64,000 bases of DNA from Pseudomonas sp. S06B 330 (GTDB taxonomy: Bacteria; Pseudomonadota; Gammaproteobacteria; Pseudomonadales; Pseudomonadaceae): the NCBI RefSeq assembly GCF_002845275.2, contig NZ_CP088149.1, forward strand, positions 411,501 to 475,500, written 5' to 3'. Under the pieces are notes generated by a model. The model did not search any database. It was not told the DNA's origin and was given only the letters and a program-made list of their open reading frames with translations. Position 1 is the stretch's first letter, and every line of letters starts with the position of its first letter. Position numbers and translations under genes: made by a program. Positions 2,376-61,622 of this stretch are shown here, piece by piece.

Positions 2376-3353
2376 TCAATTGGCGATGAACTTGGCGCTG
2401 ACGTAGGGCGCGTAGTCCGGCAGTACTGCCTCGACCTTGCCTTGCTCTTTAAGGAAGGTGGCGGTGTCGGTGATGGCCTGGGTGGTCGGCGCGCCGAGGG
2501 CGGCTACCTGATCAGCGGCCAGCGGGAACACGTTGCCCTGCAGCAAGCCCGGAATATCACTGGCCTTAGCGCCGGAGAGCTTGACCAGCTTGTCGACGTT
2601 GCTTTGATTGGCCAGCCAGGCTTGAGGGTCTTTGCGGTAGTCGGCATAGGCATCCAGGGTGACTTTGGCAAAAGCTTTGACGATTTCAGGGTGCTTGACG
2701 GCGAAGTCCTTGCGCACGATCCAGGCATCGAAGGTCGGTGCGCCTTTCTCGGCCAGTTCACCGGAAGTGATCAGCACCTTGCCGTTTTCCTTGGCGACAC
2801 CCAGTGCAGGGTCCCAGACGTAGGTGGCATCAATATCGCCCCGCTTCCAGGCGGCAATGATCGCCGGTGGCGCCAGGTTGAGGATCTGTACCTTGGCCGG
2901 GTCGATGTTCCACTGTTTAAGTGCAGCCAGCAGGCTGTAATGACCGGTTGAAACGAACGGCACGGCGATTTTCTTGCCGACCAGGTCCTGAGGCGAGTTG
3001 ATCCCGGCGCCATCACGTGCCACCAGGGCTTCGGCCGCGCCGATCTGCGTGGCGATCAGGAAGGTCTCCACGGGCAGCTTGCGGGTGGCGGCGGCGGCCA
3101 GGGGGCTGGAGCCGAGGTAACCGATCTGTACATCGCCGGAGGCGACGGCGGTAATTACATCGGCACCACTGTCAAACTTGCGCCAGTCGATACTGGCTTT
3201 GCTGGCTTTTTCGTAGTCGCCGTTGACCTGGGCGACTTTCGCCGGGTCCACGGTAGTCTGGTAGGCAACAGTCAGGTCGGCCGCCTGGGCAAACCAGCTT
3301 GCACCGGTCAGGGTCAGGGCGGCAAACAGGCGCAGCGGAGCATGCAGGGTCAT
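2376..3353 (-). CDS. tauA: Taurine ABC transporter periplasmic binding protein TauA
   Basis: Periplasmic receptor that delivers taurine to TauBC, 325 residues. An N-terminal signal peptide of about 24 residues ends at a typical AQA-AD cleavage site. The mature start (DLTVAYQTTVDPAKVAQ) and a SsuA/THI5-like fold pattern are characteristic. A good Shine-Dalgarno sequence (AAGGAG, 6 nt before ATG) supports the start. This is the first gene of the operon; its promoter must lie in the AT-rich segment upstream (about 3400-3450). Confidence 0.94.
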   Translation of the reverse strand: MTLHAPLRLFAALTLTGASWFAQAADLTVAYQTTVDPAKVAQVNGDYEKASKASIDWRKFDSGADVITAVASGDVQIGYLGSSPLAAAATRKLPVETFLIATQIGAAEALVARDGAGINSPQDLVGKKIAVPFVSTGHYSLLAALKQWNIDPAKVQILNLAPPAIIAAWKRGDIDATYVWDPALGVAKENGKVLITSGELAEKGAPTFDAWIVRKDFAVKHPEIVKAFAKVTLDAYADYRKDPQAWLANQSNVDKLVKLSGAKASDIPGLLQGNVFPLAADQVAALGAPTTQAITDTATFLKEQGKVEAVLPDYAPYVSAKFIAN

Positions 3354-3904
3354 GGTGAACTCCTTGTCAGGCGGTCGGTGGGAAGCAATGGCTGAAAGGC
3401 TAAATGATCTAAGAAAAGTAAAATAAATAACTTTTTAGCATTAGCTTAGGAGCCAATCGCTTTAAGTGACCGGGCCTGGACAGCAAGCGGTCATCCTCTA
3501 AACCTGACGATGGTCAATGCCAAGGCCTACAGAACACGAAAAGATGCGGGTGAGTTGCAGAAGGGGGCGGTAGGTAAACGCGGGGTCTCAAACGCTGAGC
3601 GATCTAAAAACCTGCAAGCAAATAGCCTTTAGGAATTTGCGCGTGTGCCGACAACGGCAGCGGAGAAAATTTCGGTCCATATTCCGTAATAATCTGAAAA
3701 ATTACGAAATAAGTCTTTTTGGATTTATAGGATTGTCATTATCCTTGACGCCAAGGGTTGACGTATTAGACCAAAGTCGTGAAATGAATCGTTACGATTG
3801 ACTTGACGGTCACGCTTTGGTGCTAATCGCCAATCGACGTCGAGCGGGACACAAAGATCCCGCCGTAAGCGACACACAAAAATTAGAAATGAGAGGAGCA
3901 AAAC
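3354..3904. promoter_or_regulatory. Divergent control region between tauA and the porin gene
   Basis: This 551-bp gap holds no convincing gene. Near tauA, 3405-3450 is very AT-rich (runs such as AAATAAATAACTTTTTA), the expected place for the sulfur-starvation promoter of tauABCD. Nearer the porin, 3685-3706 is an inverted repeat (CGTAAT, 10-nt spacer, ATTACG), spaced like a LysR-type regulator site. CysB control of tau genes is established in related bacteria; assigning these bases to it is inference. Confidence 0.4.
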
Positions 3905-5239
3905 ATGTACAAGTCGACCTTGGCATTCGCCGTGGCCGTGGGGGTTCTGGCCCAACAGGCGAACGCCGCCGGTTTCGTGGAAGACAGCAAGCTGTCGCTC
4001 AGTTCGCGAACCATGTATTTCGATCACGATGACCGTGAGACTGGGAGCAACAGCAGCCGGGAATCTGGTCAAGGTTTCAAGCTCGATTATATCTCGGGTT
4101 TCACCGAGGGTGTCGTTGGTTTTGGTGTGGACGCTCAAGCCCTTTGGGGTATTCACCTGGACGGTGGCAAAGGCCATCACCCGAACAACAGTAGCTTCTT
4201 CCCAAGCGACACTGATGGTTCGGCTGTAAGCCAATGGGGTCGTTTTGGTGCTAACGCTAAAGCGCGCTTCTCCAAGACTGAAGCTCATTTCGGTAGCGCT
4301 CTGGCACCAAACCTACCAATCCTGGTTTCGAACGATGGTCGTCTGCTGCCGCAAACGTTTGAAGGCGGCACCATTCAGACTAAAGAAATCGACAACCTGA
4401 CCATCAATGCGGGTCAATTGACTCACGCTATGGGCCGGGCATCGAGCAACCGTACTGGTTTGTCTGTCGCCGGCATTGGCGCAACTCAGGACAGTAACAA
4501 ATTCCAGTTCGCCGGTGGCGATTGGAAGGTCACCAAAGACCTGACCCTGCAGTACTACTACTCGAACCTGGAAGACTTCTACAAGCAGCACTTCCTGGGT
4601 CTGGTACACGTACTGCCAATTGCTGAAGACCAGTCGTTCAAAACCGACCTGCGCTACTTCGACAGCAGTTCGGATGGTAAGAACGGCGAGGTTGGCTATC
4701 AGTTCAGCAACAACGGCGGTTATGCCAAGAACACTGGCGAGGTCGACAACAAAACCTGGAGCGCCATGTTCACCTACACCCTGGGTGGCCATGCATTCCT
4801 GTTGGGTCATCAGCAAATCGGTGACGACGGTGGTTTCGTCTGGCTGAACCAGGGCAACGTGGTTGACGGTAATGGCCGCAACGAAGGTGCCGGTGGTGCA
4901 AGCTTCTACCTCTTCACCGATAGCATGATCAACCAGTTTGCCCGTGCCGGTGAAAACACCACGTTCGGTCAGTACTCCTATGACTTCGCCCGCTTGGGTG
5001 TTCCAGGTCTGAAGACTTCGATCTCCTACCTGCGTGGTGATGACATCCGTAACAAGAGCGGAGACGGCTCTTACAACGAATGGGAACGCGATGCTCGCAT
5101 CGACTACGTCATTCAGGAAGGTACCTTCAAAGGCCTGGGCACCAGCCTGCGTCACGGTGTCTATCGTGGCAGCGGCGAAGCCGGTGCCGACGTGGACCAA
5201 ACCCGCCTGATCTTCAACTACACTTACAGCTTCATGTAA
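3905..5239 (+). CDS. OprD-family outer-membrane porin
   Basis: Outer-membrane channel of the OprD/OprE family, 444 residues. A signal peptide of about 22 residues (cleavage near ANA-AG) is followed by the family start GFVEDSKLSLSSRTMYF. The protein is rich in alternating aromatic and glycine beta-strand patterns and ends in the Phe-containing C-terminus FNYTYSFM. AGAGGAG lies 8 nt before the ATG and an intrinsic terminator follows. It sits between the tau and ssu/lsfA blocks, so uptake of organosulfur compounds is plausible, but OprD substrates cannot be read from sequence. A second family member is at 48480-49781. Confidence 0.88.
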   Translation: MYKSTLAFAVAVGVLAQQANAAGFVEDSKLSLSSRTMYFDHDDRETGSNSSRESGQGFKLDYISGFTEGVVGFGVDAQALWGIHLDGGKGHHPNNSSFFPSDTDGSAVSQWGRFGANAKARFSKTEAHFGSALAPNLPILVSNDGRLLPQTFEGGTIQTKEIDNLTINAGQLTHAMGRASSNRTGLSVAGIGATQDSNKFQFAGGDWKVTKDLTLQYYYSNLEDFYKQHFLGLVHVLPIAEDQSFKTDLRYFDSSSDGKNGEVGYQFSNNGGYAKNTGEVDNKTWSAMFTYTLGGHAFLLGHQQIGDDGGFVWLNQGNVVDGNGRNEGAGGASFYLFTDSMINQFARAGENTTFGQYSYDFARLGVPGLKTSISYLRGDDIRNKSGDGSYNEWERDARIDYVIQEGTFKGLGTSLRHGVYRGSGEAGADVDQTRLIFNYTYSFM

Positions 5240-13827: not shown

Positions 13828-16145
13828 CACTTCTTCTTCAGTTGCTTGGCGTTGGCAAACAGCGCGGCCATGGCGTTGTTGGCCGGGGCCGGAGTTTCCT
13901 TGGCGCGGGCCGGGGCGCTCTGCTGGCGCGGTGCCGAACCTGGACGGCTGCCACGGGCGCCATCGATTTTCTCACCGGGGGTGTCGCTCATGCGCATCGA
14001 CAGGCCAACGCGTTTGCGCGGGATGTCGATTTCCATGACCTTGACCTTGACCACGTCGCCGGCCTTGACCGCTTCACGCGGGTCTTTGATGAACTTCTCC
14101 GACAGCGCCGAGATGTGCACCAGACCGTCCTGGTGCACGCCGATATCGACGAAGGCACCGAAGTTGGTGACGTTGGTGACCACACCTTCGAGGATCATCC
14201 CCAACTGCAGGTCCTTGAGGTCTTCGACACCTTCCTGGAACTCGGCGGTCTTGAATTCAGGGCGTGGGTCGCGGCCGGGCTTGTCCAGTTCCTGGAGGAT
14301 GTCGGTAACGGTCGGCAGGCCGAAGGTTTCATCGGTGAACTTTTTTGGGTCCAGGCGCTTGAGGAAACCGCTGTCACCAATCAGCGAGCGGATATCGCGG
14401 TCGGTTTCGGCGGCGATGCGCTGTACCAGTGGGTAGGCCTCAGGGTGAACGGCCGAAGCGTCCAGCGGGTTGTCACCGTTCATTACGCGTAGGAAACCGG
14501 CAGCTTGTTCGAAGGTTTTTTCGCCCAAACGACTGACTTTTTTCAGCGCAGCACGAGTTTTGAAAGCGCCGTTGGCGTCACGGTGACTGACAATATTCTG
14601 CGCCAGGGTGCTGTTGAGGCCGGAAATGCGTGCCAGCAACGCCACCGAGGCGGTGTTGACGTCGACGCCGACGGCGTTCACGCAGTCCTCGACCACAGCA
14701 TCCAGGCCGCGCGCCAGCTTGAGCTGGGAGACATCATGCTGGTACTGGCCGACACCGATGGATTTCGGGTCGATCTTCACCAGTTCGGCCAGTGGGTCCT
14801 GCAGGCGGCGAGCGATGGAAACCGCGCCGCGGATCGATACGTCCAGATCAGGAAATTCACGGGCCGCCAGCTCGGAAGCCGAATACACCGAAGCACCGGC
14901 TTCGGAGACCATGATCTTGGTCATTTTCAGAGCTGGGTATTTTTTGATCAGTTCAGCAGCGAGCTTATCGGTTTCACGGCTGGCGGTGCCGTTACCGATG
15001 GCGATCAGCTCGACCGAGTGCTTGGCGCACAGGGCCGCGAGTACAGCGATGGTCTGGTCCCACTGATTTTTCGGCACATGCGGGTAGACGGTGGCAGTGT
15101 CGAGCAGTTTGCCGGTGGCGTCGACGACGGCGACCTTGCAGCCGGTACGCAGGCCCGGGTCAAGGCCCAGGGTGGCGCGTGGGCCCGCCGGCGCAGCCAG
15201 CAGCAGATCGTGCAGGTTGTGGGCAAAGACGTTGATTGCCTCACCTTCGGCGTTGTCGCGCAGTTCACCGAACAGATCGGTTTCCAGGTGGCTGTAGAGT
15301 TTCACCTTCCACGTCCAGCGCACCACCTCGCCCAGCCATTTGTCGGCAGGGCGATTCTGGTTTTGCAGGCCGAAACGTTCGGCAATCATCATTTCGCATG
15401 GGTGCAGGGTACCCGGCAGTTCTTCGCCGACTTTCAGCGACGCGGCCAGCACGCCTTCGTTACGGCCACGGAAAATCGCCAGGGCACGGTGCGACGGTAC
15501 GCTCTTGAGCAGCTCGTCGTGTTCGAAGTAGTCACGGAACTTGGCGCCTTCTTCTTCCTTGCCAGCCACCAGGCGAGCACTGAGCACCGCTTCTTGCTTG
15601 AGGAAGCTGCGCAGCTTGTCGAGCAGGCTGGCGTCTTCGGCGAAGCGCTCCATGAGGATGTACTTGGCGCCTTCGAGGGCGGCCTTGACGTCCGCCACGC
15701 CTTTTTCGGCGTCGACAAAACGTGCGGCTTCGGTTTCCGGGCTCAGCTGCGGGTCATGCAACAGACCATCGGCCAGCTCGCCCAGGCCGGCTTCCAGGGC
15801 GATCTGGCCCTTGGTGCGGCGCTTTTGTTTATACGGCAGGTAAAGGTCTTCAAGACGCGTCTTGGTGTCGGCCAGTTTGATCTCGCGGGCAAGCTCCGGC
15901 GTCAGTTTGCCTTGCTCTTCAATGCTGGCAAGGATACTGGCGCGGCGATCGTCCAGCTCGCGCAGGTAGCGCAAGCGCTCTTCCAGATGACGCAGTTGGG
16001 TGTCGTCCAGGCTGCCGGTCACTTCTTTACGGTAACGGGCAATAAAAGGCACCGTCGAGCCTTCATCAAGCAGAGCGACGGCCGCTTCGACCTGTTGCGG
16101 GCGGACACCGAGTTCCTCGGCGATGCGGCTGTTGATGCTGTCCAT
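13827..16145 (-). CDS. tex: Tex-family RNA-binding protein
   Basis: Cytoplasmic transcription accessory protein, 772 residues from the ATG at 16145, which follows AGGTGG. Visible order: N-terminal helical Tex domain, YqgF/RNase H-like domain ([17 protein letters not shown] near residue 330), helix-hairpin-helix segment ([18 protein letters not shown]), and a C-terminal S1 domain ([20 protein letters not shown], about residue 650) with a low-complexity Lys/Ala tail. The family binds RNA and affects transcription and translation. Confidence 0.94.
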
Positions 16146-16384
16146 AAAACCACCTGACAAATTGTGAAAACAAAGGCCGCGGGCGGGCGCCATGGGGCGC
16201 TTGGATCAATGCGGCACTGGCTGAAAGCGGCGCATTATACCCAGCGCGCCGGGCTTGCGGTGATAGCAGCACGCCAGCCCTGGCCAGGCAGAACTGGCGC
16301 ACAGGGAAAAATCTGCTAACAATGCACACGGCACGGTCAATGGCGGCTAAGCCATAATGCGTGCCGAGATTAGAGGAGTTATCC

Positions 16385-17125
16385 ATGAGCAGCACTGCAC
16401 AAACCGCTGAAGGCGAAAAAATTCTCATCGTCGACGACGACCCGGGCTTGAGCAGCCTGCTGGAACGATTTTTCACCAGCAAGGGCTATCGTGCCCGTGC
16501 GGTGCCCAATACCGAACAGATGGACCGCTTGTTGGCTCGCGAGGTCTTCAACTTGGTGGTCCTCGACCTGATGCTGCCTGGCGAGGATGGTCTGACCGCC
16601 TGTCGCCGGTTGCGCGCCGCGAATAATCAGATCCCGATCATCATGCTCACCGCCAAAGGTGACGAGCTGAGCCGTATCAAAGGCCTGGAGCTGGGCGCTG
16701 ACGACTATCTGGCCAAACCGTTCAACCCCGATGAGTTGATGGCCCGGGTCAAGGCGGTGTTGCGTCGCCAGGCGCCAGCGGTACCGGGCGCGCCGGGCAG
16801 CGAGGACGAAACCGTTACGTTCGGTGACTACGAGCTGTCGCTGGCCACTCGCGAGCTCAAGCGTGGTGAAGAAGTCCACATGCTCACCACCGGTGAGTTT
16901 GCGGTGCTCAAAGCGCTGGTGATGCATGCCCGCGAGCCGCTGACCCGAGACAAACTCATGAACCTGGCCCGTGGCCGTGAATGGGACGCCTTGGAGCGCT
17001 CCATCGATGTACAGATCTCTCGTCTGCGCCGCATGATCGAGCCCGATCCGTCCAAGCCTCGCTATATCCAGACTGTCTGGGGCGTGGGTTATGTGTTCGT
17101 GCCGGATGGCAATGCCAGCAAGTGA
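16385..17125 (+). CDS. ompR: Response regulator OmpR
   Basis: DNA-binding response regulator paired with EnvZ, 246 residues from the ATG at 16385 (GAGGAG upstream). The receiver has acidic DDD residues 17-19, phosphoacceptor Asp61 in VVLDLMLPGEDG and Lys in LAKPF. The winged-helix output domain includes RSIDVQISRLRRMIE and the end YIQTVWGVGYVFVPDG. Osmotic or envelope-linked control is the family role; targets are not visible here. Confidence 0.95.
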   Translation: MSSTAQTAEGEKILIVDDDPGLSSLLERFFTSKGYRARAVPNTEQMDRLLAREVFNLVVLDLMLPGEDGLTACRRLRAANNQIPIIMLTAKGDELSRIKGLELGADDYLAKPFNPDELMARVKAVLRRQAPAVPGAPGSEDETVTFGDYELSLATRELKRGEEVHMLTTGEFAVLKALVMHAREPLTRDKLMNLARGREWDALERSIDVQISRLRRMIEPDPSKPRYIQTVWGVGYVFVPDGNASK

Positions 17126-56922: not shown

Positions 56923-57033
56923 GATGGGCTGATTCTGCCTCTTCTCGTTATGGATGCCTTTTTAGCTATAACGGATGGGGGTGGGGATTACAAGGTTCGA
57001 TACACCTGGCGGCGCACCTCAACTTGCCTGCTA

Positions 57034-57240
57034 ACCCGATGAACGTTAGGCTTCACCGGTCGCTGCAAAATCAGCGATCGGGTTTGGTCGCCCGTCTGAA
57101 CGATAGACGCTACAGCGTCCTACAACGAATACTTACGTTTGCTCGTCGGTATCTTCGTTCTATGGCAGCTGTGCGTGGGAGGCATTCGTGCCTGCCGGGT
57201 TTGTCTATTGTCCTGGTCGACCAACCTGCGTACAGCTGCC
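57034..57240 (+). promoter_or_regulatory. Structured leader upstream of DUF3077 gene, left copy
   Basis: ACCCGAT (57034-57040) and ATCGGGT (57077-57083) enclose a CGCTG/CAGCG hairpin. Farther on, GGCAGCTGT (57164-57172) and ACAGCTGCC (57232-57240) form a 9-bp closing stem around a hairpin AGGCA-TTCG-TGCCT (57180-57193). The copy at 60002-60207 keeps all these pairings. Confidence 0.6.
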
Positions 57241-57296
57241 ACCCAACTTGTTTGGTCGCAAGCGGTGACGGCTCCACCACAATAGAGACGTTCACG

Positions 57297-57617
57297 ATGA
57301 CAAAAATAGTTCCAGATCCCCCGCAATCCCTCTTCGGCAAGACTGCCACAACCACCTTCGGCTCGTGTGATGCCGGACACCCGCCTTTGTTCACCGTACG
57401 CGATGGCATTGAAGCTGAAGACGCATTGGTCCATGCCTCGCAGCTTTTGGAGGGTATCTACGATACGGCTCAGCAGGCTTGCGAGCATATTCATGGGCTG
57501 CCCAGGAAGGGCCTGCTCTGGTCCACCCTGCACTCGGCTGAGATGGCCAAGGGCTTGGTCGATGCCGTGCTGGATGGGATTGATAGTGAGGCGTTGAGGC
57601 GTAAAGGGCTCGAATAG
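57297..57617 (+). CDS. DUF3077-type small protein, left copy
   Basis: A 106-residue protein of the Pseudomonas DUF3077 type (FGSCDAGHPPLFTVRDGI, then EDALVHASQLLEGIYDTAQQ). It has no signal or membrane segment; function unknown. Start ATG 57297 is set by comparison with the right copy, from which it differs at one residue (Arg for Lys in GLPRKG). The ribosome site is weaker here (AATAGAGACG in place of AAAAGGAGCG). Confidence 0.82.
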   Translation: MTKIVPDPPQSLFGKTATTTFGSCDAGHPPLFTVRDGIEAEDALVHASQLLEGIYDTAQQACEHIHGLPRKGLLWSTLHSAEMAKGLVDAVLDGIDSEALRRKGLE

Positions 57618-57699
57618 TTCGCTTCGAGTGAGTCGGCGATGCGAGGTTGGGATTTACTCGCCCCGGGGCTGCCTGGCAGCCCGTCGTCTTGATTGGTTT

Positions 57700-57870
57700 G
57701 GTGTTACGCCTTCCGAGCTGATGTGCCAAGCGCTGCAATACGCAGCAGAGCGCGGTCAGTTGCCGTTCAAGCCGATATTGATGACTGAAGATGATGAGGC
57801 CCTGCTTGCCACGGTGCGCGAACGTCTTGCTGCACCTCAGCGGGTAAAGGTTTCGCTGGATGACCTATAG
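57700..57870 (+). pseudogene. relB antitoxin remnant lacking its N-terminus
   Basis: Codes for the C-terminal 56 residues of RelB (GVTPSELMCQALQY to VSLDDL), matching the right copy with a few changes (for example Met-Cys for Met-Arg). The ribbon-helix-helix N-terminus, promoter and ribosome site are deleted. The frame remains open from an ATG at 57628, so a chimeric peptide carrying the toxin-binding part could still be made. Confidence 0.85.
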
Positions 57871-57934
57871 CCTTGAATTCGATGCGCGGGCACTTAAGGA
57901 ATGGCACACGCTCGGCGACAAGGAGCGCTGGTAA
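57860..57934 (+). pseudogene. relE toxin remnant, 24 codons
   Basis: Begins MTYSLEFDARALKEWHTLGD like the intact RelE at 61037 and stops after 24 codons. The RNA-contacting and catalytic half is missing, so no toxin is made. It overlaps relB' just as in the intact pair. Confidence 0.88.
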
Positions 57935-57994
57935 TTTGAGCGCAGATTCAGTTAGTGTTTTCTTATTCGACTTTGAGAAAAGCAGGGAGCTTCT

Positions 57995-58489
57995 ATGTCG
58001 TTTGATGCGTTTATGAAGGTGGATGGCGTTGAGGGCGAGTCGCTTGACGATGGGCACAAAGGTTGGATCGAGCTGCTTTCCTATCACTACGATGCCGTGC
58101 AGTCTATCAGTCAAACTGCCAGTTCCAGTGGTGGTGCATCTGCTGGGGGCGTTTCCCTCGGGGATTTCCAGATCAGCAAATATGTGGATAGAGCGACCCC
58201 GAAGTTGTTTGAGCTTTGCTGCAGGGGCGCCCATATCAAAAACGTGACCATTCGAATCCATCGAGCGGGGACTGAAAAGTTCAAGTATCTGGACATCGTG
58301 CTTGAAGAGGTGCTGATTGCATTAGTGAGCGGGCAGGGCGCAGAACAATCTGGCTTTCCTGTCGAAGTCGTGACCCTAAATTACGGACGTATTAAATTCG
58401 AGTATTCACAACAGCGGCGTGCCGATGGGGGGAGTGCTGGTATCGTTTCTGGTGGCTGGGACAGGACCGCTAACAAGCCATTTGCGTAA
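57995..58489 (+). CDS. hcp: Type VI secretion tube protein Hcp
   Basis: A 164-residue Hcp-family protein: start MSFDAFMKVDGVEGESLDDG, then the family pattern GDFQISKYVDRATPKLFELC and VTIRIHRAG..KYLDIVLEEVLI. Hcp hexamers form the secreted tube and can carry effectors in their lumen. No other T6SS gene is in the window, so this is an orphan hcp tied to the effector that starts 11 nt after its stop. GGGAG precedes the ATG. Confidence 0.92.
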   Translation: MSFDAFMKVDGVEGESLDDGHKGWIELLSYHYDAVQSISQTASSSGGASAGGVSLGDFQISKYVDRATPKLFELCCRGAHIKNVTIRIHRAGTEKFKYLDIVLEEVLIALVSGQGAEQSGFPVEVVTLNYGRIKFEYSQQRRADGGSAGIVSGGWDRTANKPFA

Positions 58490-58500
58490 GGAAACCCATT

Positions 58501-59346
58501 ATGTCTGATGATGGAAGTTTTCGCGCCATCCTCAATTTTGCCCAAATGGCGGCGGTACTCACGCATGAGTCTCTTACTCCTGCCGAGATGATGTCTAACC
58601 GTATATTTGGCAGTCTTCGTCTCGTTGGCGGCATCATTGAACTTGCTGGTTCGGGTGTCTTATGTGCGATACCTGAGCCAACGATGATTTCAAAGGTCGG
58701 TTGTGTTGCAATGGGAGTTCATGCATCTGACCAACTCTCAGCTGCCTCCACGCAAATTGTGACAGGCAAGCAAACCGATTCTTACGCATTTAAAGCAGGA
58801 GCAACAGCGGCTGAGGCTTTAGGTGCCTCTCGAGCGACTGGTCAGGTCATAGGGTTAGCTACCGAATTCGTAGTGCCTTTAACTACTGCATCTATGTACA
58901 ACGCATTTCGAGTTTCCTCGGTTCGTGCTGGAAGAATGAGTATTGCTACAAGCGAGAAGCCGTTACATGCACCGAATAACAGCGTCGGTGGGCATACTGA
59001 AAAACTCCACTTCCAAAAAGATATTGCAGCATTACAGTGGCGTTTGAAAAAGGTGAAATCAGCTGCTGTAATGTCCACATTTGAAAAAATGGATATCGCA
59101 GAATTGGCTATTAGCCAAGCACTGAAAGCAAACAAACTTAGAATTCTGATGTACTCCAAAACTCAGTTTATTCGTAAGAGCAATCGCCTAGTCTTGGAGT
59201 TCGATGCGAAACAGAATGTAGGCTGGGGTATCTATCGTTCAGCTCCGAATGTTCCAGTTCCTATGACAAAGGTGAGGGTTGTTATAGAATTCGTTGAGTT
59301 CAATTATATGCCAAGATACATCCTTACTGCCTTTCCAATACCTTGA
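58501..59346 (+). CDS. T6SS effector with CdiA-CT RNase A-like toxin domain
   Basis: A 281-residue protein. Residues 30-135 form a hydrophobic, Gly/Ala-rich pre-toxin region of the kind found after hcp in Pseudomonas. Residues about 162-281 match the bacterial RNase A-like CdiA-CT domain: GGHTEKLH (His165), Arg181, the MSTF segment (191-194) and the C-terminal ILTAFP. By recalled comparison with the Y. kristensenii toxin, His165, Arg181 and Thr276 fit catalytic positions, while the Tyr position is Phe278. An AAGGAA site precedes the ATG. The gene is visibly AT-richer than the chromosome around it. Confidence 0.8.
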   Translation: MSDDGSFRAILNFAQMAAVLTHESLTPAEMMSNRIFGSLRLVGGIIELAGSGVLCAIPEPTMISKVGCVAMGVHASDQLSAASTQIVTGKQTDSYAFKAGATAAEALGASRATGQVIGLATEFVVPLTTASMYNAFRVSSVRAGRMSIATSEKPLHAPNNSVGGHTEKLHFQKDIAALQWRLKKVKSAAVMSTFEKMDIAELAISQALKANKLRILMYSKTQFIRKSNRLVLEFDAKQNVGWGIYRSAPNVPVPMTKVRVVIEFVEFNYMPRYILTAFPIP

Positions 59347-59356
59347 GATTTTTGTA

Positions 59357-59728
59357 ATGCGCGGATATATGGAGTTGATAGGCTTTATGAAGGATTTGGG
59401 TGATGGGATACTCGATTATCTACCTGAAGATCAACGGGCTGGACAGCTTAGCGTCGAAGAGATAATCGAACGATGGATGGTGAAAAAAACGTATTGCTCT
59501 GCCCTTTCGCTAAGGAAGGATATAACCACTTATATAAAGCTTCAACGGTCAGGTGATTTTTCAGTTGATGAGATTCTGTCCTGGTACGACCTTTGCTTCA
59601 TTCCTGAAAGATTGGGTGTTGAAGAGCATGTTTTTTTTACCGGTATCCTTGATTTAATCGACTTTCATATTGAAAAAAAGAGGAAAGCTATTTTTGTTAA
59701 ATATTTTGGTTGGATCGGTTACAGATGA
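59357..59728 (+). CDS. Putative immunity protein for the RNase A-like effector
   Basis: A 123-residue protein if it starts at ATG 59357 (119 residues from ATG 59369). No signal peptide or membrane span is visible, as expected for protection against a cytoplasmic RNase. It begins 10 nt after the effector stop and is markedly AT-rich. I do not recognise its sequence as a named family; the call rests on position next to the toxin. The ribosome site is weak, suggesting coupling to the effector. Confidence 0.65.
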   Translation: MRGYMELIGFMKDLGDGILDYLPEDQRAGQLSVEEIIERWMVKKTYCSALSLRKDITTYIKLQRSGDFSVDEILSWYDLCFIPERLGVEEHVFFTGILDLIDFHIEKKRKAIFVKYFGWIGYR

Positions 59729-59952
59729 AGACTTGGGTGTGTGCTAAGGGGGCTAACGGCTTCTGTGGTGACTAAAGCGGTGACAAAAGCTATTGAAACA
59801 AAGCTGTTTATGTTGAATTTTTGTGTCGCCAGAGGCTTTCCACCCAGACATTTGGCCAAGGGATGTTTCTGTGCGACAGGCGGTGTTTGTAAGCGGGGCA
59901 GTGGTGCGGGCCACAAGGGTAGCCTCCAATATCGAAACGGACCTCTATCCTT
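59729..59952. other. Spacer between immunity gene and right repeat
   Basis: About 220 bp with no convincing gene. A plus-strand frame from 59741 continues into the repeat but has no family resemblance or ribosome site. It may be a remnant of the tail of another cassette. Confidence 0.35.
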
Positions 59953-60001
59953 GGATTACAAGGTTCGATACACCTGGCGGCGCACCTCAACTTGCCTGCT
60001 A

Positions 60002-60207
60002 ACCCGATGAACGTTAGGCTTCACCGGTCGCTGCAAAATCAGCGATCGGGTTTGGTCGCCCGAACTAGCAAAATGCAAAAGCTCTCATCCACGAATGCTG
60101 ACGTTTTTTTCGTCCGCATCTTCGTGCTATGGCGGCTGTGCGCGGGAGGCATTCGTGCCTGCCGGGTTTGCCTTTTGCCCCGGTCGACCAACCTGCGTAC
60201 AGCTGTC
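60002..60207 (+). promoter_or_regulatory. Structured leader upstream of DUF3077 gene, right copy
   Basis: ACCCGAT/ATCGGGT pairing at 60002-60051 is identical to the left copy. The long-range stem is GGCGGCTGT (60131-60139) with ACAGCTGTC (60199-60207): both changed positions keep pairing as G-U. The enclosed AGGCA-TTCG-TGCCT hairpin is unchanged. Retained pairing despite substitutions supports an RNA structure. Confidence 0.6.
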
Positions 60208-60263
60208 ACCCAATTTGTTTGGTCGCAAGGCGGTGGCAGCTCCACAGCAAAAGGAGCGTCACA

Positions 60264-60584
60264 ATGACAAAAATAGTTCCCGATCCCCCGCAATCCCTCT
60301 TCGGCAAGACTGCCACAACCACCTTCGGCTCGTGTGATGCCGGACACCCGCCTTTGTTCACCGTACGCGATGGCATTGAAGCTGAAGACGCATTGGTCCA
60401 TGCCTCGCAGCTTTTGGAGGGTATCTACGATACGGCTCAGCAGGCTTGCGAGCATATTCATGGGCTGCCCAAGAAGGGCCTGCTCTGGTCCACCCTGCAC
60501 TCGGCTGAGATGGCCAAGGGCTTGGTCGATGCCGTGCTGGATGGGATTGATAGTGAGGCGTTGAGGCGTAAAGGGCTCGAATAG
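60264..60584 (+). CDS. DUF3077-type small protein, right copy
   Basis: A 106-residue protein nearly identical to the left copy, from ATG 60264 with a good AAGGAG site. Same features (FGSCDAGHPPLFTVRDGI). DUF3077 genes are widespread in Pseudomonas with unknown function. It precedes relBE by about 220 bp and is probably transcribed from its own leader. Confidence 0.84.
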   Translation: MTKIVPDPPQSLFGKTATTTFGSCDAGHPPLFTVRDGIEAEDALVHASQLLEGIYDTAQQACEHIHGLPKKGLLWSTLHSAEMAKGLVDAVLDGIDSEALRRKGLE

Positions 60585-60771
60585 TTCGCTTCGAGTGAGT
60601 CGGCGATGCGAGGTTGGGATTTACTCGCCCCGGGGCTGCCTGGCAGCCCGTCGTCTTGATTGCTTTGGTGGGTGCGAGAGGCTCGAGTGAAACGCGCGGT
60701 GGGTATATGAAGCGATGGCGCTCCGTCGGTAGGTCAGCAGGGCTACTTGCCCATCGAGCCACATTAGGTCA

Positions 60772-60799
60772 CTGTAAAGACTATTGTCATTACAGGAGG
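60772..60799 (+). promoter_or_regulatory. Candidate RelB operator overlapping the relB ribosome site
   Basis: CTGTAA (60772-60777) and TTACAG (60790-60795) form a 6-bp inverted repeat with a 12-nt spacer. The right arm runs into the Shine-Dalgarno AGGAGG (60794-60799), 8 nt before the relB ATG. Autoregulation through such sites is usual for relBE; this assignment is inferred. Confidence 0.5.
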
Positions 60800-60807
60800 C
60801 CGATGCC

Positions 60808-61047
60808 ATGGCGTCTATCAATGTTCGTATCGACGACGATCTCAAAGCACGCGCCTATCGTGAGCTTGAAAAGCTGGGTGTTACGCCTTCCGAGCTGATG
60901 CGCCAAGCGCTGCAATACGTAGCAGAGCGCGGTCAGTTGCCTTTCAAGCCGGTATTGATGACTGAGGATGATGAGGCCCTGCTTGCCAAGGTGCGCGAAC
61001 GTCTTGCTGCACCTCAGCGGGTAAAGGTTTCGCTGGATGACCTATAG
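60808..61047 (+). CDS. relB: RelB/DinJ-family antitoxin
   Basis: A 79-residue antitoxin from ATG 60808. The N-terminal ribbon-helix-helix reads ASINVRIDDDLKARAYRELE and LGVTPSELMRQALQYVAE; the acidic C-terminal half should wrap the toxin. It overlaps relE by 11 bp, the typical antitoxin-first coupling. Confidence 0.92.
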   Translation: MASINVRIDDDLKARAYRELEKLGVTPSELMRQALQYVAERGQLPFKPVLMTEDDEALLAKVRERLAAPQRVKVSLDDL

Positions 61048-61327
61048 TCTTGAATTCGATGCGCGGGCACTTAAGGAATGGCACAAGCTCGGCGACACGG
61101 TGCGCCAGCAATTCAAGAAAAAACTGACTGCGGTTTTGCTCAATCCCCGTATTGAAGCGAATCGGCTGCATAGCTTGCCGGATTGCTACAAGATCAAGTT
61201 GCGCAGCAGCGGGTATAGGTTGGTCTACCAGGTCATCGATCAGGAGATCGTGGTGTTTGTGGTCGCGGTGGATAAATGGGAAAGGGAGCAGGTTTATCGC
61301 AAGGCGGCTGAGCGGTTGAGCGAGTGA
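61037..61327 (+). CDS. relE: RelE-family mRNA interferase toxin
   Basis: A 96-residue RelE-type toxin that cleaves mRNA in the ribosome. Family features are MTYSLEFDARALKEWHKLGD, YKIKLRSSGYRLVYQVID and the C-terminal AVDKWEREQVYRKA, with the basic and aromatic residues expected at the active site. It is intact, unlike the 24-codon remnant at 57860. The tRNA-Thr gene lies beyond on the opposite strand. Confidence 0.92.
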   Translation: MTYSLEFDARALKEWHKLGDTVRQQFKKKLTAVLLNPRIEANRLHSLPDCYKIKLRSSGYRLVYQVIDQEIVVFVVAVDKWEREQVYRKAAERLSE

Positions 61328-61407
61328 ACCTGGCTTTCGCTGATATCCATTCCAGCGGGGCAGAGGCTAGTTCGGACTTTGTATCGCAACCCTCAACGCG
61401 TGAATAC

Positions 61408-61441
61408 AAAAAAGGCCCACCTTTCGGTGAGCCTCTTTTTT
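61408..61441 (-). terminator. Terminator downstream of tRNA-Thr
   Basis: A hairpin GGC-CCACC / GGTGA-GCC with a short loop is flanked by runs of A and T, giving a T-run on both strands. It can stop the tRNA transcript and also relBE. One internal mismatch weakens the stem. Confidence 0.7.
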
Positions 61442-61449
61442 ACTGCGTA

Positions 61450-61525
<76 letters not shown>

Positions 61526-61622
61526 ACAGGGTCGCCATTATAGCGATCAGTTTGCATCTGTAAACTACTTCTGCAAGATTCCTTGCAAAGCCTTTATTCA
61601 ACAGGCTTTGCAAGGCGTTTTC

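Follow-up and report, generated by a model that had tools for sequence, protein, structure and literature searches.

Here we describe a locus of Pseudomonas sp. S06B 330 (NZ_CP088149.1) at which two direct repeats, each carrying a C4-type RNA leader and a gene of the DUF3077/DUF6124 families, enclose a cassette with a gene of the type VI secretion system (T6SS) beside a tRNA-Thr gene. Coordinates refer to the window, i.e., the whole 64,000-nt stretch that was analyzed, and the S06B 330 genome is called the own genome. Self-alignment bore out the direct repeats named in a preliminary description of the stretch (copy 1, 56985-57938; copy 2, 59953-61114). Sequence alignment of the two copies gave blocks of 110 nt (100%), 125 nt (90%), 300 nt (99%), and 249 nt (93%), and a chance origin of the repeats was rejected.

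All elements of the two modules lie on the + strand. In copy 1, a promoter-like TTGCCT-17 nt-TAGGCT element read from the sequence (57024..57052) stands before the leader, which comprises the target mimic c4-a1b1 (RF03163; 57046..57098; 58.8 bits, gathering score 46.7; a1 core TTGGTCG at 57084-57090) and the C4 antisense RNA (RF01695; 57158..57246; 72.6 bits, gathering score 45) with the loops a' (CGACCAA, 57218-57224) and b' (TCTATTGT, 57204-57211). The segments a2 (57252-57258) and b2 (57279-57286), complementary to a' and b', follow upstream of the start codon of a DUF3077/DUF6124 gene encoding 106 aa (57297..57617; PF19619 34.0 bits, PF11275 33.8 bits). Copy 2 has a promoter-like box at 59992-60020, also read from the sequence, c4-a1b1 at 60014..60066 (60.4 bits; a1 core TTGGTCG at 60052-60058), C4 at 60125..60213 (73.7 bits) with a' (CGACCAA, 60185-60191) and b' (CCTTTTGC, 60171-60178), then a2 (60219-60225), b2 (60247-60254), which overlaps the ribosome-binding site, and the second 106-aa DUF3077/DUF6124 gene (60264..60584; PF11275 33.2 bits, PF19619 30.4 bits). 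The gene and the structured leader were thus rightly placed in both copies by the preliminary description, and the leader can now be named, all four Rfam matches being above the gathering score.

The further claim that each repeat carries relBE did not hold. In copy 1 (57688..57936, +) relB is without its 5' part and scores under the NCBIfam cut-off, and relE stops after about 24 codons at the edge of the cassette; an intact RelBE/ParDE type II toxin-antitoxin gene pair is present in copy 2 only (relB 60808-61047, relE 61037-61327, +; NCBIfam PRK11235.1 118.8 bits and RelE_StbE 34.6 bits, both over the cut-off). The cassette between the repeats was described correctly: it holds hcp, for the T6SS tube protein (57995..58489, +; PF05638, T6SS_HCP, 125.3 bits; matches Hcp structures), an effector gene of 281 aa with a C-terminal RNase A-like CdiA-CT domain (58501..59346, +; PF18431, RNAse_A_bac, 91.7 bits), and a putative immunity gene of 123 aa without a Pfam family over the cut-off (59357..59728, +), and it is AT-richer, with a GC content of 0.39-0.53 against about 0.55-0.58 in the repeats. 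An integrase, of which none had been seen, has left the start of a P4-type integrase gene with its upstream flank at 59871..59952 (-). The tRNA-Thr gene (TGT; 61450..61525, -) lies about 120 nt past relE.

C4 leaders, their proposed target genes, and cognate pairing

The C4 RNA of phages P1 and P7 is a processed small RNA that represses translation and silences icd-ant, and the CI RNA of P4 is a parallel to it. In the P1 record the elements are ordered a1, b1, c4, a2, b2, icd, the two Rfam families score 68.8 bits and 51.0 bits, and icd starts 51 nt past the annotated end of c4 and 48 nt past the end of the Rfam match. In both window copies, 51 nt separate the start codon from the end of the Rfam C4 match. 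The own genome contains 16 C4 RNAs, all over the cut-off and each preceding an open reading frame (ORF) that starts in the M.K.VPDPP manner (16/16), with 44-54 nt between C4 and the ATG at each locus; the a1-b1 mimic lies upstream in the same orientation, with an a1 core of at least 6 nt at 16/16 loci. Searching the own genome with the window DUF3077 protein recovered 12 of these 16 ORFs and three fragments without C4. Boxes resembling TTG(C)..TAGNCT were seen by eye upstream of most of the listed leaders in the own genome and in its relative G015.

In neither window copy did the spacer from b1 to C4 contain a recognizable intrinsic terminator, and by an automatic criterion a terminator-like hairpin before C4 is not general (4/16 own loci, 0/9 in G015, 4/30 in a third genome, G097, of whose 43 loci 30 were fetched, and 17/29 in the genus sample); in one own case (L013) it is located upstream of a1-b1, outside the spacer. 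Between b1 and C4, the leaders of L001, L007, L014, and many genus-sample loci show the order GGCGC-GCGCC-GGCGC together with a T run; judged from its sequence this arrangement could be attenuator-like, and C4 binding to b1 could switch it.

Pairing between loop and target was examined in an a'-a2 alignment of the 16 own loci and P1 (7 columns, 119 cells; 500 shuffles). Seven Watson-Crick pairs are formed at all 16 own loci and in P1 (119/119 cells paired), six of the seven pairs are changed on both sides, and the covariation score is 0.777, compared with 0.234 +/- 0.042 after shuffling (reached in 0/500); sliding the alignment by 1-3 columns leaves 29-48% of the cells paired. A 7-bp pairing of a' with its cognate target was present at 16/16 own loci, 9/9 in G015, 25/29 in G097, and 29/29 in the genus sample, compared with 16/240, 8/72, 89/812, and 196/812, respectively, for the downstream region of another locus (L060, on a short contig of the genus sample, and L170 of G097, for which no ORF was found, were left out). 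The longest perfect b'-b2 run averages 6.7 nt in cognate and 4.4 nt in non-cognate combinations; L002 has no b'-b2 run of at least 5 nt. At one locus syntenic between the own genome and G015 a single coordinated change affects a1, a', and a2, and a1 differs at one further base.

Pairing energies were calculated with RNAduplex in narrow or wide windows and compared with permuted C4-target pairings. In narrow windows the cognate energies were below the permuted ones for a'-a2, b'-b2, a'-a1, and b'-b1 (0/20000 each), and by the sum over a2 and b2 the own target was best for 12/16 C4s and the own C4 best for 14/16 targets. In wide windows a'-a2, b'-b2, and a'-a1 were below the permuted pairings (<=12/10000) in the own genome, G015, and G097, this test being run also without L171 and nine more loci of G097 and L205 of G015, where the start lies too far away or the loop pattern is missing. 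Specificity thus differs among the C4 loci, most of which have their own loop sequences.

The unit is abundant in the genus. A C4 match was found in 110 of 119 genomes of the genus sample, in 109 of them over the family cut-off, with a median of at least 13 per genome and counts of at least 10 in 73 and at least 20 in 45 genomes; these are lower bounds, as they refer to at most the best 33 scored candidates per genome, a number reached in 16 genomes. Full counts gave 43 C4 RNAs in G097 (42 over the cut-off) and nine in G015. In an order-wide sample C4 occurred in 20 of 145 genomes, the highest number besides the own genome being six. By eye, the ORFs after C4 in G097 (n = 30) comprised 23 of the [VT]P[DNH]PP type, four FNVRAG-like, two others, and one locus without a recognizable ORF, and those in G015 carried VPDPP in eight of nine cases and VPDLP in one, one ORF having just 30 aa. 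Pseudomonas has multiplied the C4-DUF3077 unit across the chromosome.

We consider it likely that each repeat is a C4-type operon controlled by antisense RNA with DUF3077 as the target gene. The RNA families, their order and spacing, the cognate covariation, and the copy number are computational observations. In such an operon a1-b1, C4, a2-b2, and DUF3077 would lie in that order on one transcript, from which C4 would be processed and would fold with the loops a' and b' exposed for pairing. By analogy with P1 and with the work on Gifsy-1 isrK, a' would bind a2 and b' would bind b2 at the ribosome-binding site, which would keep DUF3077 translation off by default, and the upstream a1-b1 would compete for C4 and could relieve the block. 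With mostly individual loop sequences, the loci would mainly control themselves.

Several results weigh against this interpretation. The number of pairs changed on both sides was reached by 31/500 shuffles and the number of pair types by 201/500. In narrow windows the own target ranked first for only 12/16 C4s by a'-a2, 10/16 by a'-a1, 6/16 by b'-b2, and 5/16 by b'-b1; the C4 of copy 2 is among the four exceptions in the summed energies, the target of L010 being 0.5 kcal/mol better than its own. In wide windows the own target was best for a'-a2 in just 1/16 cases, and b'-b1 was weak in the own genome (65/10000) and not significant in G015 and G097. Self-specificity is incomplete because some loci share a'. 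Profile comparison found DUF3077 unrelated to P1 Icd. Finally, other ORF types also sit behind C4 in the genus sample, where 29 usable loci, biased toward top-scoring C4s, gave six ORFs of the [VT]P[DN]PP type, three FNVRAG, 12 NPSK-like, seven HIFTRHKL-like, and one other, so that DUF3077/DUF6124-type ORFs, the sole C4 partners found in the own genome, are one of several types in the genus. The NPSK-like ORFs (31-57 aa) and HIFTRHKL-like ORFs (mostly 172-175 aa) were observed at L033-L059; C4 control is therefore not confined to DUF3077/DUF6124.

The variable interval beside tRNA-Thr

With the flavin monooxygenase (FMO) gene as anchor, the interval was recovered from the three closest relatives. 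In G414 (FMO 94%) it is empty, the flanks corresponding to the window up to 57000 and from 61406 lying 65 nt apart; in G015 (FMO 93%) it holds a single C4-DUF3077 module with a truncated relB, without hcp or relE; and in Pseudomonas sp. H9 (FMO 92%) it holds a gene for a 664-aa chemoreceptor (MCPsignal, dCache_1) and one C4-DUF3077-relB module without relE. Genome G428 shows the same match pattern as H9. The module of G015 shares the relB truncation and the b-type with copy 1. The check for empty or differently filled sites thus succeeded, and because its content differs among relatives the interval cannot count as a stable region; none of the relatives recovered has two modules with another cassette between them. 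As side observations, the 3' flank of tRNA-Thr (L209-L215; window 61400-61530) occurs in two types: the window, H9, and G414 have a native terminator, and G015 has an island-type flank, the same as that next to an integrase island in G507, which suggests, on sequence grounds, that G015 may have lost an island at tRNA-Thr; and in G106 (L075) the FMO gene forms an inverted pair (3299-4666 and 15485-16852) about 11 kb apart.

Comparison of both copies with G015 and H9 revealed a mosaic. The leader up to a1 is identical between the copies (110/110) and 67-70% identical to the relatives, and DUF3077 with its 3' region matches at 388/390 positions between the copies and at 71-73% to the relatives. 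The b1-C4-b2 segment agrees at only 159/204 positions (78%) between the copies, with copy 1 nearer to G015 (171/204, 84%) and copy 2 nearer to H9 (177/201, 88%); a' is common to both, and b' differs with matching changes in b2. Both sides were therefore included in a recent duplication or gene conversion, which either spared the specificity segment or was followed by its replacement. Copy 2 opens with GGATTACAAGGTT, an FMO-side sequence also present at the empty site of G414, so the leader of copy 2 derives from the copy 1 position.

The remnant at 59871-59952 aligns over 82 nt, at 95% identity, with the first 14 codons and the 38 nt upstream of a P4-type integrase gene of G507 (L213 9758-9839). 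There the integrase (Arm-DNA-bind_3/Phage_integrase) is whole and lies beside tRNA-Thr, the integration site, and the island is bounded on its far side by part of a tRNA 3' end. Purifying selection on DUF3077, the empty and alternative sites, and this remnant likewise rest on computation. Integrase debris at its end points to an island origin of the cassette, which appears from the sequence to have come with the end of a decayed integrase island.

The effector matches the solved CdiA domain (PDB 5e3e) in sequence with an E-value of 0.022 only. The gene order is that of a T6SS orphan hcp-effector-immunity set, for which secretion and immunity roles are predicted, and the T6SS core, judged by VipB, is encoded elsewhere in the own genome at two loci. 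Nine of 144 genomes, the own included, matched the effector, in G056 as a fragment and in G019 and G088 as the toxin domain only. Genomes of other species also have the cassette: G037, G077, G026, and G086 each combine relatives of hcp, the effector, and the 123-aa ORF, the 123-aa ORF relative being distant in the last (27% identity); G068 has the effector, its frame containing a stop, and the 123-aa ORF without an hcp match, and in G056 the effector fragment lies beside a relative of the 123-aa ORF, which therefore adjoins the effector or a fragment of it in six other genomes. Behind the single effector of G026 (L079, 5042-6427) there are two immunity relatives (61% and 74%) with a third, distant one between them. 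Homology to the window starts at 57927, which coincides with the breakpoint of relE in copy 1, in three cassette loci, and later in the others.

Quite possibly, though we would stop short of calling it probable, the cassette is the integrase-proximal end of a tRNA-Thr island whose integrase has decayed, the block now standing at the junction of a local duplication of C4-DUF3077-relBE. The integrase remnant, the whole island of G507, which carries this integrase and part of a tRNA 3' end, the start of copy 2 with FMO-side sequence, and the position of effector and immunity gene next to tRNA-Leu in G068 speak for this account. It is at odds with the window, which retains only the 82-nt piece of the integrase, having a single tRNA 3'-end match and no second copy, with the position of the remnant, which differs from G507 in being FMO-side of the native terminator that flanks the tRNA, and with the 78% identity of the specificity segments, for which a simple recent duplication is insufficient.

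The preliminary description had instead the cassette entering, or being exchanged, by homologous recombination between DUF3077-relBE repeats, with relBE stabilizing the island. In favor of this model, the cassette is bounded precisely by the repeats, the interval contains nothing in G414, one module in G015, and a different filling in H9, and the copies share homogenized tracts. Yet no C4 was present in the 14 kb scanned at the cassette loci of four other genomes (L077-L080, 4/4; L081 was not part of this Rfam scan), which rules out C4 modules as a general vehicle of hcp cassettes; G015 and H9 have a single module, relBE is incomplete in copy 1, and there is integrase debris where the cassette ends. 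relBE is not a regular partner of the module, being absent at every other own C4 locus, and was ruled out as a constant one. We therefore regard recombination between the repeats as unlikely and retain only the variability of the interval.

In summary, two C4-DUF3077 units lie next to tRNA-Thr, in a variable interval into which the hcp-RNase-immunity cassette also came, with relBE as a further toxin-antitoxin pair on the tRNA side. The simple story of exchange between repeats gives way to a variable interval on the side of the tRNA, whose repeats, island debris, and T6SS cassette can be distinguished. A tRNA gene near other C4 loci was found in one of 23 cases, the G015 ortholog of the window site.

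Possible roles of the C4-DUF3077 unit

The ratio of nonsynonymous to synonymous substitution rates (dN/dS) in the DUF3077 family was 0.02-0.15 in eight comparisons, which indicates purifying selection; the window copies, with 0.31 at dS 0.013, are too alike to judge. The own paralogs at L004 and L006 are 99% identical in protein at dS 0.27 (dN/dS 0.02), an unusually strong constraint. The structural model (predicted local distance difference test, pLDDT, 86.3; predicted template modeling score, pTM, 0.74) has two short strands and two long helices. Foldseek gave no match at E <= 0.001 against the PDB and viral models, the best E-value of a DUF3077 profile against PDB sequences was 0.095, and tblastn found no DUF3077 in the phage records at E 0.01.

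C4-DUF3077 might alternatively be a toxin with an RNA antitoxin (type I-like), in which harm upon loss of C4 would explain the differing specificities. A default-off design, the many copies, and the name of icd in the P1 record, a cell-division inhibitor, would suit such a toxin, as would the few copies syntenic between species: at 1.5 kb resolution 3/16 own sites have a partner among the nine G015 loci, one further site being syntenic on one side only. As DUF3077 is unrelated to Icd and its model, a two-helix protein that looks soluble, has no confident structural match, this alternative is doubtful.

Rather improbable, in our judgment, is that Pseudomonas chromosomes keep ten to forty antisense switches of different specificity, derived from phage immunity, as phage sensors, the a1-b1 or a2-b2 RNA of an entering phage or satellite with the same specificity titrating the matching C4 and freeing DUF3077/DUF6124; the released protein would then halt the cell or the phage. 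This is raised because the P1 a' 7-mer CTGTCAA is identical to that of four own loci and because Pseudomonas phages carry C4. In that case the changing specificities would reflect an arms race, as is suggested by conversion tracts that leave out precisely the specificity segment. A reading of the leaders as inert relics or functionless dispersed repeats, which their dispersed positions and the 3/15 own DUF3077 protein matches that are fragments without C4 would allow, is highly implausible in view of compensatory change, a'-a2 covariation above chance, conserved spacing, and purifying selection on the gene.

If the C4-type operon is accepted, C4, known as a phage immunity RNA, acts as a chromosomal control device, present in high copy in most of the Pseudomonas genomes sampled, and provides a natural set of antisense pairs with different specificity within one cell, and DUF3077/DUF6124 gains a regulatory context and the expectation of being silent by default and switched by RNA. 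The C4 RNA family has been listed for Proteobacteria and phages (PMC2864571), and the single paper found with DUF3077 concerns a mutation in P. putida and mentions a DUF3077 pseudogene of strain KT2440 (PMC9630843); neither DUF6124 nor C4 joined with DUF3077 or DUF6124 was found in the open-access literature. The RNA family and the order of its elements were already known; of DUF3077 as target family, the chromosomal multiplication, and the many specificities no description was found there.

Comparison with known systems

The closest parallel is c4-icd-ant (immI) of P1 and P7, with the same RNA families, the order a1-b1-C4-a2-b2-gene, and the 51-nt start spacing counted from the annotated end. 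The window differs in that DUF3077 stands in the place of icd and that the chromosomal copies are many and of different specificities; no antirepressor gene was found among the ORFs behind either copy, so this is not a P1-type operon with icd and an antirepressor gene downstream.

For isrK-orf45-anrP of Salmonella Gifsy-1, the isrK model matches the a1-b1 part of the two copies with 44.2 and 35.5 bits, below its gathering score of 50. The portions available of PMC4825925 describe isrK as a short RNA acting on a downstream leader ORF; Gifsy-1 differs in being a prophage locus with an antirepressor, and C4 goes unmentioned in those portions.

The effector shares its C-terminal domain with CdiA-CT RNase A-like toxins (PF18431); rather than within CdiA, the domain is found here behind hcp and a 160-residue N-terminal region.

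Among phages and related elements, RF01695 scored over the gathering score in all six fetched records, which include PAJU2, vB_Pae_U10, phiAH14b, DVM-2008, and the plasmid pHS87b. In U10 and pHS87b C4 shares an operon with genes of the integrase and primase types. Classification of the ORF behind C4, which did not extend to U10 and phiAH14b, gave a Bro-N gene in PAJU2 and, as in the window, a DUF6124 gene in DVM-2008. In the DVM-2008 record (L165, 1997-2483) the C4-DUF6124 unit was observed beside a PrtR-type repressor and may belong to a chromosomal part of the record. In these Pseudomonas phages and satellite-like elements C4 occurs in single copies, whereas the own chromosome carries many.

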